Positions 9,847 to 58,375 of a stretch of DNA of 64,000 bases are shown here, one piece after another. The DNA is taken from positions 6,054,839-6,118,838 of the forward strand of contig NC_087383.1 of NCBI RefSeq assembly GCF_963675165.1. The letters are read 5' to 3'. Every line of letters begins with the position of its first letter. The stretch's first letter is position 1. The notes beneath the pieces are model-generated. The model saw nothing but the letters and a program-made list of their open reading frames with translations. It did not search any database and had not been told where the DNA came from. The DNA is from Halichondria panicea (Eukaryota > Porifera > Demospongiae > Suberitida > Halichondriidae). The position numbers and the translations under genes are program-made.

Positions 9847-34862
<25,016 letters not shown>

Positions 34863-35326: not shown

Positions 35327-42560
<7,234 letters not shown>

Positions 42561-48619: not shown

Positions 48620-51600
48620 TTATTGTGGAACTCTGTCGACAATGTACTGACACACCCTAACAGCCACGTCTCCTCTCTTGAGATCCAGTAAGATGATCAA
48701 CAGAGCTCGGAACGTGGCAACAAGAGGGTTCGGGGCACGCCACAGCTTCAAAGCTTTCGCCATTGCAGTTTGAATGTCTCGTTTGACAGCTAGATCATGA
48801 AGGTGAGTTTGTTGGCCGGGAGACAAGCGTAACTGATCGAGATAGTTCTCTAGATTATCGAAGCAGCCGGCTAGGATATGAATGTCGTGTTCTATGACCT
48901 CGGTGTCCAACTGTGTGTCACTGACTCCAGTCCTCCTCTTTAGAGCAGCCAGTGTTAGACCACTCACCACTGATTCACCTGATATAATTATGGGTGGAAA
49001 AAACAAAGGTCAAATTATAACGCTAACAATGCATAATTTTATGCGTTTATATCCTGTTCACTCCAGTCTCTATTTCTACCTACAATTAATACAATTACAT
49101 GGCAGTACATGTGCATGTATATATAATTATTATTTTGGTGAAGTTTTTAAGGTACTGACAAAAAATGTTATACCCTAAACATATAACTATACACATTGTT
49201 AAATGAAAATGGGTGCCATCAAGTAATTTAACGACATCTTACCAAGGCTCGAGGGTTGTCTGACTTCATTCCTCTCCTCAATAGTCGTCTGTGTGGCTTC
49301 GTCTAATAGGAGAATCGGAAAATACAGTCGTTGATGCAATATCAGATAATTAAACTAAAATAACATTATAATTATAGCCTTAATCAATGATCGATAATTA
49401 TTAAAAGTAACTTTCAGACGGGTATAAGCGGCAAATGGGTTTAGTATACTCACGTGTGCTTGGACTGGGTGACAGTTCAGTCGAGTCATCAGGTTGCTGT
49501 GGCAACATGTTTTCACAAAATAACATAGGAGCAACACCAGCCAAAACCTATAATCATGAGACATCATGTTTATGGGTCTGGAAAAATACGATAAATTTTT
49601 GTCATTTTTGTGTACAAAATCCAAAAAGTTTATTACATAATTATAAGACATGCACAACGAATTAGTTTCCATGACTTACGAGAGGGTTCTTCCCAGAGAA
49701 GACACTGAGTGGATCCAGAATCAGTCTCAATGCTCTGCAAGTCCCGTCACCACTGTCCCTCCACACCCTCAGGGCATGCTCTAGACTGCCACTCATTCCA
49801 TGTGAAACAACTGAACAAACAATGTCTGATAGTTCACGATTCTTGCTCCAATAAGATGAAAGAGCTGAGAGCAGTCCATCAGAGAGTTTCTCATCGTGTG
49901 CTGGGTCACCTTCGTTGCATAGAGCTTGTAAAATATTTTCACCGAGATCAGCGTACACCTCAGATTGCAGCAGCTCACCCACGGGTACAACTTGTGTGCT
50001 GGTGGTAGATTTAACGAATTCCTTCTGACAAGAAATGCTTTTAGCAACAGATTTCATACTAAACAATGGAGCACCAGCGATGTCAGTGGAAGGTAACAAC
50101 CGTTCGTCCGTGTCTATATTGGGGCAAAACTCACGAGCAGCTTCAACCACTTTGTTGATAACAGTGGATCGTACATCGAGTACATCTAACGAGACCTTAG
50201 GTGCTTGTAGTTGAATAGTGACACTCTTCATCTCCATCACCTCAACACGGGCTCTGATTCCATCCTCAGTGACCCAACACACACCAGTCTTCCAGACTGA
50301 GCATTGACCTTGCAAGGCAGGATTGTCAGTGTCCACCACTGGAGCAAGACCAAGCGACAGAGACAGTCGAAGGAGAAGAACGTGAAGAAATCGAGGGTTG
50401 AAAAAATGGTCATTGTGTGCACAGGCCAGGGACCAGTTGAAACTGTACTGGAAATTAATAGTGGTAGCCATTGGTTCGCTGGAAGCTACCAATCGGATCA
50501 GTGCTGGACAGAAGATGAAGCCTCCAGAGACGGACACAGCAGTTGCAGGAAGATGCTTGTCGATAAGACTGAGCACTATTTTGTCTTCAATGGGAACGGC
50601 TAGCTCGAGATGAAACAAGTATCCAATGAGCATGTCAATGTTGAAATTGGGGAAGTGTTTAGCGAGATTTGATTTTAGAACAACCCCAGTACTTGTGGAA
50701 AGCTCACAATGCTGTGTGAAATCTTCGGGAGCAAAAATGGTGCCATTTACTTCAGCCAAGAGTTTCGATTTGTCAATAACGATAAAGCTCTTTTCTGGAA
50801 AGGAAGCATTGCAAAGGAAAAGAATATGACCTTTGTCACTGAGTTGAACACAGATCTCAACAAGTCGTGGAATGCTGGTAGGCACGAAAGAAAGAACTTT
50901 TTCATCTTTTCTAGAAACTCGATCTTCATTTTCCCTTGAACTTCTTCCAGGGTTACAGCAATCTCACCCGAGTACTTGTCAAGAAGGTGGACAAGAAACA
51001 TATGAGCATTGAGGCTCACAGACAACCGCTCTCGAATGGAAGCACAGCTAGTTCCAACAATATGCCTAAATCTCATCATGCCATCAGAACTTGAAAAGCG
51101 ACAATCCATTGAAACAAAACCAGCAAGATCAAACATTGGAAACTTTTGAATGGCTCGTACTATAATTTTCTTCTTTTGCTCCACTTGTGTGCTTGTCACG
51201 AGATCAGCATGACTACCTACCACAATGAGTGGTGCTTTGCCCTCCATATTGGCACACTGGTTGGCAACAATTCCCAACCAATAGGAGACGGAGGTTGCTG
51301 TGATGGTGTCGTTATTCTGGAGACCGATTACCATGACAAAAACGGGTGGACACGTATCGACTGTATTCTTGATAATGGCAACATGGCTGCTGTAGTAGAC
51401 CTCTTGACCAGCAAAGTCGTAGACCAACACATCTCCAAAGACACGACTCTTGAATAATTGAGGGATGATTCCGGCTGTTTTCTTGCTCACTCCATCGACT
51501 TCTTTAGGAGAGACGAAGATGTTGACTAGAGATGTGAATGCATTTGGCTCGTGTTCCATTGCTTTAATGAGAGTGCTCTTTCCTTCTCCACCATGACCGA

Positions 51601-51855
51601 TAACAAGCATCTTCACTGGGTTTTTCAGGGGATCCTTTGAAAACACGTTACCAAGAGCTTTGCGATGATTGGTATAGACATCTTCGGCAGTAGCTCCATG
51701 TTGCAACAAGAGTAGAATGATTTCCTTGTTCTTTGCAAGAAAGAGTGGTGTGTGTCCATCGTCATCTTTGATATTGGGATCACAGCCAACAACGTCATTC
51801 AGAAGATATTCCACGATTTCGGTAACCCCATACTGGCAGGCAAGTAGAAGAACAT
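48620..51855 (-). CDS. Second Roc - COR - death-fold gene copy, 5' truncated and frameshifted
   Basis: Exons in coding order: 51855-49680, 49547-49454, 49302-49243 and 48978-48620 (stop), with phases 0, 1, 1 at the junctions. The protein parallels the first gene: ankyrin end, GHGGEGKST, DFAGQEVY, VVGSHAD, COR region, Ser/Pro linker and the death-fold exon. The main exon needs one extra base to stay in frame. The break lies near 50898-50910, among T runs, between the IEFLEKMK part and LSFVPTSIP. No ankyrin or start exon is seen upstream within the window, and a 9.55 kb element sits 31 bp before the exon. It may be a pseudogene, though later exons remain intact, so a sequence error or recent loss is possible. 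Confidence 0.75.
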
Positions 51856-52069
51856 CTGCAATGGATATGCATCAATAATCATTGAGTATGGGGTGCCATT
51901 TGTGTCAAAATTAATACAAATTGCACGTACATCATAAATGAATACATATAATATAAATACAGGTGGTGCATATGATATGCAGGTGCCCCATATGTAAATG
52001 CAGCATGTGCATATAGCAAATGAAGTGGTTGCATATACAAATGTAGCACGTACATTTGTATATGTACCT

Positions 52070-53111: not shown

Positions 53112-53450
53112 CATATGCAGCAGTCGCATATAATAAATGCAGCAGCCTCATATAATATATGTAGCAATCGCATATATAAATGTAGCAGTCCCATATAATA
53201 ATTATATGCAGCAGTCGCATATAATAAATGCAGCAGCCTTATATAATATATGTAGCAGTCGCATATATAAATGCAGCAGTCCCATATAATATATGTAGCA
53301 GTCACATAATAATAAATGCAGCAGTCCCATATAATAATAATTTATGTAGCAGTCGCATATAATAAATGCAGCAGTCCCATATAATATATGTAGCAGTCGC
53401 ATATATGAGGTGCCGTTTGTGTCAAAACTATGTAAAAGTGAGACATATAT

Positions 53451-54030
53451 ATATGTCCATGGGTATTTATAAATGTCCATGGGTATTTATATATATCCAC
53501 GGGTATTTATAATACCCGTAGACATTTATAAATGTCCACAGGTATTTATAAATACCCATAGACATTTATATAATTATGTCCATGGGTATTTATAAATGTC
53601 CATGGGTATATATAAATGTCCATGGGTATATATAAATGTCCATGGGTATAATTATATAAATGTCCATGGGTATTTATAAATGTCCATGGGTATTTATTAT
53701 ATGTCCATGGGTATTTATAAATGTCCATGTGTATTTATAAATGTCAATGGGTATTTATAAATGTCCATGGGTATATATAAATGTCCATGGGTATTTATTA
53801 TATGTCCATGGGTATTTATAAATGTCCATAGGTATTTATTATATGTCCATGGGTATTTATAAATGTCCATGGGTATATATAAATGTCCATGGGTATTTAT
53901 TATATGTCCATGGGTATTTATAAATGTCCATGTGTATTTATAAATGTCCATGTGTATTTATAAATGTCCATGGGTATTTATAAATGTCCATGGGTATATA
54001 TAAATGTCCATGGGTATTTATAAATGTCAG
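53451..54030. repeat. Left sub-terminal array, 20-bp unit TGTCCATGGGTATTTATAAA
   Basis: About 28 units are in tandem. Each contains two small palindromes, CCATGG and TTTATAAA. A few units near the terminus are inverted or carry variant bases. The right arm (57622-58195) mirrors it. Confidence 0.95.
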
Positions 54031-54120
54031 TGGAGGATGTGTGCTTTTCAGGGTGTGGTTTTGTTACATTACAAGTGATAGTCACATGACTGTTACATAA
54101 CCTGCCACATGGTCACAACA

Positions 54121-55872
54121 ATGGCTGAAGGCTCAATAAGTGTGAATGTTGGAGTGTTGTCTAGTGCCCTGGCTGTTGCAATTCAGCAAGCAGCTAGCAG
54201 TGGACAGTCACAGTCACCTCAAGTCCCTGCCAATCAAAGTCAGCACACTTCCAGTCAAAGGTACAAATGTAGTGTACAGACCCATGAAAGTTTCAGATAT
54301 AGGCAGCATTTGATCATGCATCAGCCCACAATAATTTAGCATTACTAAGGAAGAAAGTGCACACAGGTATTACTTTATGTTGTGCATGCTGCATGCATGA
54401 TAACACTTATTTTTCTGTCTAGGTCTTACGATGTTTACAGAAGCCTTATCGATTTGACACAAGAGTCTCCCGACGATATGTCAGGTAGCGGCACTGACGA
54501 TGAGCTTCCCAAAGTGGAGTTTTCTCTTGCACCTCAACGTGATTTGGAAGAAAGGTATTGACTAAATTTGAAACATGACCGTGTTTCATTTATTATCTTC
54601 TAGGGGGGTTCGCAAAACAAATCCAATTGTATCCAAGCACGTAGTTCTCCAACATCAGTTGAGAGTACTAACTGGTGCAGCTGATGAGGAAGATCGACAA
54701 CGGATATGTGTACGCCGTAGTCACATTGTACAAGATGCATTGTGTGCTTTCGCCAAACCTTCCTTTCACACCTCAAAGATGTTGAAGGTGACCTTCATTG
54801 GGGAGATTTCAGTGGATGATGGAGGTCCCAGGCGAGAGCTGTTCAGTGTACTCATGAGGGAGCTCTTTGACAAGAGTGGCCTTTTCACAGGCTGGCCTGA
54901 GAATGCTGTACCAGTGCACAATGTTCATGCCTTAGCTGAAAATAAGTTCTACATCACTGGAAAGATCGTTGCAACCAGCTTAGTACAAGGTGGGCCACCC
55001 CCAGTGTGCTTCAGCCGTGCTGTTGCAGACTATATTGTGTTTGATGAAGTGAGGAGTTCTCCAGACCTTCAAGATATACCTGACTTCGAAGTTCGGCAGA
55101 ATCTTGAGAAGGTTGCGTGTGTACGTGTGTGTGCCTGTGCCTGTTTTTACTACATTTCTACAGATGCTAACTATTGTGAATGTTGAGGAACTCAGGTCAT
55201 TCACTGATGAGCACCTTGAGCTTCGCTTTGAGTGTGGCTACCAGAAACCAACCAGCTCGCTGCAGATCTCAGATAAGGAGGAGATCCTGAAGACAGTGTG
55301 GCTCCATTTTGTGTATTTCCTCCCTCTTGCTGAGCTGCAACAGCTAAGGAAGGGATTGAGGGAGACCCTCCAGCTGGAAATTTTGATGGTCCAATACCCT
55401 GATGACATGCATTCGTTCCTTGCCACCTCAATTGCGTTTGATGTTGATGGTGGTGACCTCTTAGACTGGTTTGTGGCTAGCTACTCGGAAAGAGGAAGCA
55501 ACAAAAGAAAGTCAGAGGAGGCTGTTTACCTCATGTGGAGCAACTATGTCATGGATTGCTCTGGTCAGTTACACACATTCATACAGCACTGTATATATGT
55601 ACATACTAAGCATTTATCGTTTGTCAGTTACACATTACAGCATTTATCCCAACACAGATGGTGATGAATCAGGTGTGTCGATTGGTGACATTCTACAATT
55701 TATCTCTGGCTCTAGGAGGCTTCCAGCAGCTGGGTTTCCTTGTATCCCTAGTGTCCACTTCACAAATGAAAAGATTCTCCCTAAGACTTCAACATGTGAC
55801 GTAAGCATCACCTTTCCAAGATCTTTTGACGAGCTGCCATATATGAGATGTTTAAGAAAAAAATGGATATGA
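54121..55872 (+). CDS. HECT-domain E3 ubiquitin ligase-like gene of the transposon
   Basis: Five exons, 54121-54260, 54423-54554, 54604-55111, 55164-55563 and 55658-55872, join with GT/AG and phases 2, 2, 0, 1 into 464 codons. The leader begins MAEGSISVNVGVLSSALAV, as in the transposase. An acidic linker follows (SPDDMSGSGTDDE). The HECT domain contains FIGEISVDDGGPRRELF, HALAENKFYITGKI, LHFVYFLPLAELQQL and the catalytic segment LPKTSTCDVSITFP with the active Cys. The last residues are out of frame: after ATATAT at 55839 another frame gives YEMFKKKMD and GFGGGP, a normal HECT tail. A two-base slip is likely. Transposon-linked HECT proteins may modify host factors or the transposase; the target is unknown. 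Confidence 0.88.
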
Positions 55873-55969
55873 GCGTTTTGGATTCTGCTGGTTTTGGTGG
55901 TGGTCCGTAGTTAGTATATAACAGTTCCAACTTTGACATTTTAGCTGCTGTATTACTTCATTGTGTTCA

Positions 55970-56036
55970 TTCATTCATTCATCATCACATTATTCATTCC
56001 TTTTTCATTTATTTATTCATTCTTTCATTCATTCTT
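55970..56036. repeat. (ATTC)n simple repeat between convergent genes
   Basis: CATTCATTCATTC and diverged continuation separate the 3' ends of the HECT and transposase genes, probably within the 3' flanks of both. Confidence 0.85.
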
Positions 56037-56059
56037 ATCATAATTATAATAATTGAATA

Positions 56060-57534
56060 TTACATCCAAATACATTGTGAGCAAGTAGCATTAAGATGCT
56101 GTCCTGTAGTATGAAGTACGTCGACAAAGAGTCCTCTACCATTATCTTCTGCTTCTTCAAGGGGATTTATAGTTTGGAAACTTTGTTTTAAAATTGAGCA
56201 TGGTATAAACTTAATTCTTGGCACTGATACACGTTCTCCTTCAACATCAGAAGTGTCCACATTAGCTGTAGTACCAAGTTCTTGCTCGCTTGTTTGCAGC
56301 ATACCTTCAAAAAAAGTTGGTATGGAGTTCGATTGCCTTCAGTAGATAAAGGATGATGATTCCAACTATCTACGAAACCTGAAATACATTTGTTTATTCT
56401 TGGCAGGAATATCAGATGCAAACAGTAAAGATCCACTTCATTTAAGGGGTCAAGAAGTCCATCACTTTCCAAAGATCGGAAGATTTGGGAAAACACGGAA
56501 CCAACACATCTATGAACGTCACGCCAGAGTCTCTCAATTCTTTCATTGTGCACAGAACTCCCGGTGATTACACAACTGTAATCATTATTGTGTGCAGCAA
56601 TCATGTACCGCCATACCTCTACATTTTCTCCGCCGTGATCTGATCTCACATGGTTAGGGACACCATAGTGCCTGATACTGTCAGTGAAGAGCTGGAGAAC
56701 AGTTTCTGAACGATTGTTGTCGGTGCATGCCACATAAATGATAGTGCGGGAGAAGCCGTCAATTGAACCATGGATCACAAAACGCCACCTTATAAGTTTA
56801 TGATGGCCATCAATGTGCCACACATAATTTGGGTGAGGGGCACTGTACACACGGCGTCTAACAACAGTACAGCGACGCGCAATGACATTTTCGTGATCCG
56901 TTCGATGAATGGAATCCCTGACAGCTTGCCGAGGAACTTTTAATCCCCTTGCTCTTAAGTGGCCGCAGACAAGTCGTTCCCCATCATTCGGGTGATCTCT
57001 TTTTATACCACTGATCACATCATCTAGCTCATTATCATCCAACATCGACCCATCCTGTGAGGATCTTCCATTTTCTTCTAATCGTCTGTACAAAGTTGCT
57101 CTTGATATTCCCAAGATAGACGCAATTTTATTCCATTTGTAATGAAGTGATCGTATTTCCAGTATTTCGTCAATGGTAACAGTGGACCTCGGCCTTCCTG
57201 GACGATCAGACCTGTATATACACATAGACAGTTATGTATCAGAATTATTGTTCATACAGATATAGCACAGTGGAACCTCGTCTTATGTGACAAGGGACTT
57301 GCCCGTGTATAATTATGGAAACTGAAGTACGTGGTGTTTACCATAGGGTAATGGTAATACCGCCGGTATGGTAAACTTTCTGCTAGAGTCTGTCACTGAC
57401 CTGTCACTAATGGGACTCTGGTTGGCACCACTTGTTGGCACTTGAGGTAACTGTAACTGACCACTGCTAACTGCTTGCTGAATTGAAACAGCCAGGGCAC
57501 TAGACAACACTCCAACATTCACACCTTCAGCCAT
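56060..57534 (-). CDS. DDE integrase-type transposase with HTH, one frameshift
   Basis: Exons are 57534-57401 and 57211-56060, joined at phase 2. The leader reads MAEGVNVGVLSSALAV. Exon 2 has a GRPR turn followed by a helix-turn-helix (IRSLHYKWNKIASILGISR, TLYRRLEE), then the rve catalytic core: YVWHIDGHHKL (first Asp), HVRSDHGGEN (second Asp) and NERIERLWRD (Glu, 34 residues on by my count). The enzyme would cut the TAT...ATA ends. The frame breaks in a run of seven A (56309-56315, plus strand). One added base gives QLFFEGMLQ and an acidic C-terminal tail to 56060, and brings the two exons to 429 codons. The copy is therefore inactive as sequenced or mis-sequenced. Confidence 0.88.
57401..57534 (-). 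CDS. Transposase leader exon, inverted twin of 54121-54260
   Basis: The two exons and about 85 bases upstream (GTGCTTTTCAGGGTGTGGTT, TTACATTACAAGTG, CCTGCCACATGGT) are nearly identical in inverted orientation. Differences keep the frame. The leader is Ala/Gln/Ser-rich with no known domain. Confidence 0.85.
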
Positions 57535-57621
57535 TCTTGTGGACCATGTGGCAGGTTATCATGTGACTACCACTTGTAATGTAACAAAACCACACCCTGA
57601 AAAGCACACATCCTCCACTGA

Positions 57622-58195
57622 CATTTATAAATACCCATTGACATTTATAAATACCCATTGACATATATAAATACCCATGGACATATATAAATGTCTATGG
57701 GTATTTATAAGTACCTGTGGACATTTATAAATGTCTACGGGTATTTATAAATACCCATGGACATTTATAAATACCCATTGACATTTATAAATACACATGG
57801 ACATTTATAAATACCCATGGACATATAATAAATACCCATGGACATTTATAAATACCCATGGACATTTATAAATACCCATGGACATTTATATATACCCATG
57901 GACATTTATAAATACCCATGGACATATATAAATACCCATGGACATTTATATATACCCATGGACATTTATAAATACCCATGGACATTTATATATACCCATG
58001 GACATTTATAAATACCCATGGACATATATAAATACCCATGGACATATATAAATGTCTATGGGTATTTATAAATACCTGTGGACATTTATAAATGTCTACG
58101 GGTATTTATAAATACCTGTGGATATATATAAATATCCATGGACATTTATAAATATCCATGGACATTTATAAATACCCATGGACATATATATATGT
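57622..58195. repeat. Right sub-terminal array, inverted twin of 53451-54030
   Basis: Units ATTTATAAATACCCATGGAC are in tandem, with a few inverted units near 57690-57745 and 58050-58105 that form local hairpins. Confidence 0.95.
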
Positions 58196-58375
58196 CTCAC
58201 TTTTACATAGTTTTGACACAAACGGCACCTCATACGCATATAATAAATGCAGCAACCTCATATAATATATGTAGCAGTCGCATATATAAATCCAGCAGTC
58301 CCATATAATATATGTAGCAGTCACATATAATAATTATATGCAGCAGTCGCATATAATAAATGCAGTCCCAATAAT

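Follow-up and report, generated by a model that had tools for sequence, protein, structure and literature searches.

A two-gene IS3EU transposon of the sponge Halichondria panicea in which a HECT ubiquitin ligase gene faces the transposase gene

An IS3EU-like transposon of Halichondria panicea, found at positions 53404-58234 of the 64,000-nucleotide stretch of DNA analysed here (the window), harbours two convergent genes, one coding for a DDE transposase and the other for a HECT ligase. The pair is mobilised as a single unit flanked by 6-bp target duplications. Since many related elements of this genome contain the same convergent arrangement, the ligase looks, on sequence grounds, like a long-kept working part of the element and not a stray passenger. 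IS3EU elements are already known.

The left end of the element (TATGAGGTGCCG, from 53404) and its right end (CGGCACCTCATA, up to 58234) are flanked by the two copies of the target site duplication, CGCATA, at 53398-53403 and 58235-58240. A preliminary description of this DNA had placed one unit with a 6-bp duplication at exactly these coordinates, with two convergent spliced genes, one for a DDE enzyme and the other for a HECT ligase retaining its catalytic Cys (STCDV), and had assigned the element to IS3EU. All these features were recovered in our analyses. The left terminal inverted repeat (53404-54240, plus strand) is about 840 bp long and comprises ~28 copies of a 20-bp unit together with most of HECT exon 1; the right one spans 57425-58234 (minus strand), and both inner ends are approximate. 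In each ~840-bp arm, 28.5 copies of the 20-bp unit were counted. The repeats extend over the 5' flanking sequence of both genes and the greater part of their first coding exons, which is why the HECT and transposase proteins start alike. Such leader sharing was found only in the family of the window element. The inverted repeats detected in another family, L060, with one arm reaching to about 1140 and the other starting at about 4620, end before the recognised coding parts.

The termini conform to TA..TA in three sponge families, with TATGAGG..CCTCATA in the window family, and TATGGAGC..GCTCCATA and TATGGAAC..GTTCCATA in the two others. Among the gene-bearing, two-ended copies examined in these three families, the target duplications are exactly 6 bp in 13/14 cases and 7 bp in the remaining one. 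Matching 6-bp flanks are present in 7/7 such copies of the window family, while the second family has exact 6-bp duplications in 5/6 and a 7-bp duplication in 1/6, and the third has one in its single copy (CTTTTT). The sole gene-less copy examined for duplications, L018, shows no target duplication.

The transposase gene lies on the minus strand. Its exon 1 (57401-57534) codes for the leader and is mostly within the right inverted repeat, and exon 2 (56188-57211) codes for a helix-turn-helix and the DDE core. The codons of the first and second catalytic Asp are at 56809-56811 and 56638-56640, and that of the catalytic Glu, separated from the second Asp by 34 residues, at 56533-56535; the DDE residues are invariant in 15/15 transposases. 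The window ORF matches the Pfam models PF24764 (rva_4, E 4.9e-77) and rve (5e-9). With the NCBIfam models the transposase scores 57.1 bits for IS481 and 53.7 bits for IS3, both below the cut-offs for bacterial members. No integrase zinc finger (HHCC) was among the Pfam matches before the core, where helix-turn-helix-type models and weak others matched. The element is thus IS3EU-like, as judged from its ends, its duplications, the likeness of its transposase and the missing HHCC finger.

The HECT gene, on the plus strand, starts at 54121 with an exon (54121-54260) coding for the leader similar to that of the transposase. Intron 1 (54261-54422) is followed by an exon at 54423-54554, with GT-AG sites in the sister copy L009, by one with the start of the HECT N-lobe (54604-55111), by one with the remainder of the N-lobe (55164-55563), and by the last exon (55658-55910), which codes for the C-lobe and includes the catalytic cysteine codon of the STCDV motif (55795-55797). 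The protein translated from a sister copy (687 aa) matches PF00632 with 51.9 bits (cut-off 23.9), positions 2-304 of the 306 of the model being aligned with the C-terminal residues 384-684, whereas single unspliced ORFs of the window score 17.9 and 20.5 bits, below the cut-off. The active-site TC is kept in 8/8 aligned element C-lobes. Judging from these features, the protein is a HECT-type E3 ubiquitin ligase, predicted to transfer ubiquitin. Its likeness to solved structures is weak in sequence, the best being Rsp5 (E 8e-7). Its N-terminal domain gave no match in Pfam, none at E 0.01 among 42 candidates of the protein database, and no signal with a clownfish protein described below.

The window copy is decayed, with a frame break in both genes: near the C-terminus of the HECT protein (ORF stop at 55872), and near the end of transposase exon 2, after about residue 313 of the ORF. 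Both frames are open in sister copies. The window copy is also a short form, devoid of ~970 bp that were deleted at intron 1 together with two N-terminal HECT exons, which three sister copies retain. Of eight copies with both exact ends, seven carry both genes, one, a 415-bp element, carries neither, and none carries the transposase alone. Copies of the same inverted-repeat family with a transposase but never a HECT gene, which would have pointed to a passenger according to the preliminary description, were therefore not found among these eight.

Across the genome, 95 merged transposase loci were examined for the closest HECT match up to 3 kb away. It is convergent with the transposase in 67 cases, on the same strand in four and divergent in one, and 23 loci have none; a control with 200 random placements gave a mean of 0.69 and a maximum of 5. 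The convergent pair is present in at least seven diverged families. Its recurrence, suggested earlier as a check across animal genomes, was borne out in other families of Halichondria panicea. An early reading, based on 28/95 loci with any Pfam HECT match within 6 kb, was that many IS3EU families lack HECT; this impression came mostly from incomplete detection. Queries with element HECTs gave 44 convergent pairs within 3 kb, and adding L080, a divergent C-lobe from one family seemingly devoid of HECT, raised the count to 67/95. Twenty-three of the 67 pairs depend on this query, whose own Pfam HECT score is 19.2, under the cut-off of 23.9, and some of its matches contain stops and are weak, with E values close to 1e-5. 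One further query, whose matches were inspected by eye outside the count, showed no new pairing. Some of the 23 loci without HECT hold long open frames, such as C10:3899174 (450 aa) and C6:2978664 (407 aa); the 1.2-1.3 kb searched beyond these two revealed no HECT C-lobe. Together, the absence of transposase-only copies (0/8) and the recurrence at 67/95 loci exclude that the HECT gene is a one-off passenger.

Between families, the HECT protein appears to be constrained roughly like the transposase. For the window family against the L027/L079 family, pS is saturated (0.81-0.91), with pN of 0.29 and 0.36 for two HECT exons and 0.33 for the transposase. Between L059 and L060, conservation of the HECT pieces (pN 0.36 and 0.44) falls somewhat short of that of the transposase (0.34). 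Within families, substitution counts revealed no significant constraint on HECT: three synonymous and five non-synonymous changes and one stop for the window copy, L010, L011 and L014 against L009 (P 0.25), six, 14 and two stops for all copies (P 0.27), and three and four, and zero and three, synonymous and non-synonymous changes in the two L060 family pieces. Leader changes seen in L013 are an artefact, since this locus holds the transposase leader only. For the transposase, the counts show constraint in the window family (11 synonymous, five non-synonymous, one stop, P 9e-5) but not in the L060 family (four, 18, one stop, P 0.75). The divergence of the two genes, the comparison of which had also been suggested, was not significantly correlated across families in Mantel tests (P 193/720 with six families, 446/5040 with seven) based on a HECT stretch of only 45-83 residues. 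The C-lobe tree has low support.

We propose that promoters within the inverted ends would drive both genes together, that the transposase would cut and insert the element, and that the ligase would act in trans in its service, attaching ubiquitin to a protein that would otherwise hold transposition in check. That target, which we put forward as a proposal, would most likely be a host silencing or genome-defence factor, with the complex of transposase and DNA as a less likely candidate; a host target is preferred by analogy with IS3EU elements of fungi that carry alpha-kinase and TET/JBP dioxygenase genes. We give this model as a whole, of a two-gene IS3EU transposon with a HECT ligase as long-standing partner of its transposase, about an even chance. 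A reasonable but less probable alternative is that, in the same two-gene transposon, the ligase targets the transposase, or its complex with DNA, either limiting the level of the enzyme or tagging the bound complex for disassembly by the host. The pairing of both genes over a long divergence is consistent with it, and the similar leaders of the window-family proteins could bring them together, but leader sharing was seen only in that family, and in L060 the inverted repeats found do not reach the recognised coding parts. It is rather unlikely that the HECT gene has no role in mobility and is carried as a passenger or as regulatory cargo, kept by host benefit or by chance: the loci without a HECT match within 3 kb (23/95) and the lack of significant within-family constraint would fit, but the pair is found in at least seven diverged families in nearly always the same orientation, its protein appears constrained between families, and no exact-ended copy has the transposase alone. 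Lastly, insertion of a transposon into or beside a host HECT gene, favoured only by the host having HECT genes of its own, is refuted by the HECT gene lying inside ends with target duplications in 7/7 copies at different sites, and 25 of 27 HECT clusters without transposase within 6 kb were, by eye, absent from the element-HECT matches, so that host HECTs are not the closest likeness of the element HECTs.

A search with the full-length HECT protein, in which the best 7999 candidates by shared words were scored, kept two. One Halichondria panicea protein found in this way, named 'G2/M phase-specific E3 ubiquitin-protein ligase-like', is the HECT of the window family itself (57% of the 687-aa query aligned at 99% identity); its name suggests a cell-cycle gene, yet the gene sits in a transposon. 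Since this NCBI-named protein is a transposon product, HECT genes in sponge gene sets should be annotated with caution. Another HECT protein, clownfish LOC111588293, aligns at 27% identity over 362 residues. Its score with the element C-lobe profile is 68 bits, whereas ten host HECT loci reach 38.9 at most; two of these loci are one gene, and several have their scores lowered by introns that cut the C-lobe. The transposase was also found (42-47%) on three contigs filed under a sponge-symbiont MAG, which are probably DNA of the host, another sponge. No HECT C-lobe was found on them, but they are only 3.4-4.2 kb long, one continuing into retrotransposon-like frames and one being cut by the contig end. 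No match came from the viral contigs or the phages searched.

Ubiquitin ligases are carried by viruses, and a cut-and-paste transposon with a ligase as its standard second gene would represent a new way to act on the host cell. More speculatively, the transposase-HECT pair might be an ancient animal IS3EU module for ubiquitin-based counter-defence, and the genes called 'G2/M phase-specific E3 ligase-like' that are present in multiple copies in other animals, fish among them, might be transposon genes or domesticated from such genes. A single genome with families both having and lacking a detectable partner offers a natural test of the role of the ligase.

IS3EU, with GingerRoot, is described as a superfamily of eukaryotic DNA transposons, and shares with the sponge element TA..TA ends, 6-bp duplications and an IS3/IS481-related DDE transposase without an HHCC finger, according to the available text of PMC10045372, in which the word HECT does not appear. 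On 24 May 2022, Repbase contained 45 IS3EU families, of which 17 were autonomous (PMC10045372). No paper on IS3EU and HECT together was found in the library of papers searched. In the available parts of PMC12730594, IS3EU elements of rust fungi and Tuber have an alpha-kinase gene in opposite orientation to the transposase gene and a TET/JBP dioxygenase gene between them. They thus have in common with the sponge element a gene oriented opposite to the transposase and 6-bp duplications. The ends of the rust families are TAYGG..CCRTA (PMC12730594), and those of the sponge families are TATGG or TATGA. The partner genes differ, alpha-kinase and TET/JBP dioxygenase in the fungal elements (PMC12730594) and a HECT ligase in the sponge, and the HECT-bearing element takes its place beside them.

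The transposase and the HECT ubiquitin ligase of this transposon form one mobile unit of two genes, with their catalytic residues retained and with long-term constraint. The IS3EU-like element (53404-58234) has TATGAGGTGCCG and its inverse as its ends, lies within a 22-bp minisatellite array and has CGCATA on either flank, in agreement with the 6-bp target site duplication of the preliminary description. The two convergent genes reported there were likewise recovered, with the DDE transposase on the minus strand and the HECT gene on the plus strand. The transposase ORF matched PF24764 (E 4.9e-77), rve (E 5e-9) and a resolvase-type helix-turn-helix (E 3.8e-5). The nearest bacterial models were IS481 (57.1 bits) and IS3 (53.7 bits), both below the cut-offs for bacterial members, and the top PDB matches were retroviral integrases, albeit weak (E 1e-4). 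In an alignment of 15 relatives, the D, D and E residues do not vary; 34 residues separate the second D from the E. The window copy has a frame break close to the end of each of its two genes. Elsewhere in the window, two similar ankyrin-Roc (ROCO-type GTPase) genes are found on the minus strand (10826-13066 and 49662-51871, the latter split over two reading frames), as well as a DDE_Tnp_1_7 transposase fragment with an internal direct duplication (37802-38467), which we take to be of piggyBac type.

The exact 29-bp terminal sequence was found as paired ends at eight places in the genome. The preliminary description had considered that relatives might carry the transposase but never the HECT gene; this is not the case, as seven of the eight copies harbour both genes, two of them broken by other insertions, and the eighth, a 415-bp element, has neither. 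All seven gene-bearing copies have matching 6-bp flanks, of a different sequence at every copy; in the C17 copy, a second 16-bp copy of the right end stands between the right end and the duplication. Comparison of the flanks of the 415-bp copy revealed no duplication. An additional pair of ends with two mismatches each, 1.27 kb apart (C5:1352700-1353966), encloses no transposase match, and a one-ended copy on contig C16 retains the transposase and the 3' part of the HECT gene. Sister copies show 92-99% identity in their main matches, which suggests a young family. One copy (C17:2196072-2218191) is interrupted by an insertion of 17 kb, with an overlap of ~3 bp. IS3EU-like transposase loci cluster on contig C7, where eleven of them, belonging to several families, lie within 0.8 Mb (~6.05-6.84 Mb, a region that includes the window).

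A transposase search of the genome yielded 127 matches, merged into 95 loci. Both genes were seen in sequence in at least seven families (window, L027/L079a, L079b, L059, L060, L031 with L029 entered as a single family, and L080). The L059 element is 7.0 kb long and has perfect ends of 30 bp (TATGGAGCGCC..); its seven copies are 99-100% identical across the part with both genes. Recurrence of the convergent pair between ends with 6-bp duplications, envisaged in the preliminary description for animal genomes at large, was borne out within this genome, with exact 6-bp duplications at five of six two-ended L059 copies (7 bp at the other) and, read by eye, the ends TATGGAACGCC.. and the duplication CTTTTT of L060. 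At locus L079, the HECT and transposase genes of a third family are parted by a nested fourth element, itself with a convergent pair. The L080 family occurs as inverted pairs (C1:4126095-4154326, C1:8834472-8843889, C8:780309-797464, C9:2874335-2881997, C13:4273030-4281831 and C16:4429103-4447234), whose left half has both genes and whose right half, ~3-23 kb away, has an inverted second transposase and the HECT 3' part only. This arrangement resembles that of a composite element whose very long inverted ends contain the transposase gene.

With the Pfam HECT model alone, a match was present within 6 kb of 28 of the 95 loci and was convergent at 27 of these. Adding element HECT queries gave, within 3 kb, 44 convergent loci, one divergent and 50 without a match. 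With the divergent C-lobe of L080 also added, 67 loci were convergent, four had a same-strand HECT downstream, one was divergent and 23 had none; the 67 include several copies of the same family and are therefore not independent, and some L080-query matches are weak. In the 3-kb counts, the third-family transposase of L079 was scored as unpaired. Loci were classed by their nearest HECT match, and the last count used a shortened HECT list without many redundant matches and the presumed host HECTs, none of which was near a transposase in the 44-convergent count. Random placements with the same list paired a mean of 0.69 and a maximum of five of the 95 loci, ignoring orientation and assuming 6.5 Mb for contigs with no entered length. 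L080 itself scores 19.2 with the Pfam HECT model, below the cut-off of 23.9; its C-lobe has a TC motif at the aligned position, and one locus (C3:4745667) was found by both the L080 query and the Pfam model. The same-strand C-lobes lie ~3 kb downstream of the transposase (C4:2653247, C4:3498270, C15:5970426 and C7:4193342).

In the sister copy L009 (C7:6696291-6702308), the HECT gene has seven exons with GT-AG introns and a single open frame of 687 aa, which matches PF00632 with 51.9 bits over profile positions 2-304. A 395-aa database protein 99% identical to it is annotated 'G2/M phase-specific E3 ubiquitin-protein ligase-like [Halichondria panicea]'. A ~970-bp segment with two exons for an N-terminal domain is retained in L009 and two other copies (L014 and L016) and absent from the window copy and three others (L010, L011 and L012). 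We read the short copies as deletion products, because they still contain the final bases of the second lost exon together with its splice donor. The N-terminal domain (FPFVFLQCTGAGSKSLTIPS..TFTWTPQQVAKLG; L009 2226-2771, L079 3-320) is conserved between two families, and a Pfam search with it matched no model.

Comparison of the window family with L027/L079 gave saturated synonymous divergence (pS 0.81-0.91); pN was 0.33 for the transposase, likewise 0.33 for the N-terminal domain of the HECT protein, and 0.29 and 0.36 for two HECT exons. Between L059 and L060, dN/dS is 0.23 and 0.41 for the HECT pieces, with pN of 0.36 and 0.44 as against 0.34 for the transposase. Judging from these values, the ligase, including its N-terminal domain, has been maintained as a protein roughly like the transposase, somewhat less so in L059/L060. 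Within families, where the substitution counts are small, constraint on HECT did not reach significance; constraint on the transposase was seen in the window family but not in the L060 family.

The two arms of the window element align over ~840 bp, a stretch that takes in, for each gene, the 5' flank, the start codon and the greater part of exon 1; the predicted leaders are MAEGSISVNVGVLSSALAVAIQQAASSGQ.. and MAEGVNVGVLSSALAVSIQQAVSSGQ... One promoter type probably serves both genes, whose products would share an N-terminal segment; gene conversion between the arms suffices to account for the resemblance. In L060, the inverted repeats found end before its recognized coding parts.

Both genes would be expressed jointly, the DDE enzyme moving the element by cut-and-paste and the ligase acting in trans, with a host factor as its more likely target. 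A less likely alternative is that the ligase tags the transposase or the transposase-DNA complex, which would fit the strict gene pairing and the shared leader.

As to the wider distribution of element-type HECTs, the elements are known here from one genome, and the clownfish protein LOC111588293 may provide a lead. It has an element-type C-lobe (68 bits; ten host HECT loci scored no more than 38.9), with 27% identity over 362 residues. Three contigs (LWTN01000118, LWTN01000139 and LWTN01000127) assigned to the MAG of a Cycloclasticus symbiont from a Poecilosclerida sponge also bear eukaryotic-type IS3EU transposases; they are probably DNA of the host that was binned with the bacterium.

In the literature searched, which did not extend to Repbase and most subscription papers, none of the 35 papers naming IS3EU also contained HECT, and we found none joining HECT, transposase, terminal inverted repeat and ubiquitin ligase; among the matches listed, no title or abstract start dealt with transposon-HECT pairing. 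A Repbase curator may already have noticed the HECT gene. According to PMC10045372, IS3EU is an established superfamily with TA..TA ends and usually 6-bp duplications; as of 24 May 2022, Repbase had 45 IS3EU families, 17 of them autonomous. By analogy with fungal IS3EU elements, which encode other enzymes, we lean towards a host factor as the target of the ligase: in PMC12730594, an alpha-kinase gene is opposite to the transposase, with a TET/JBP dioxygenase between them.
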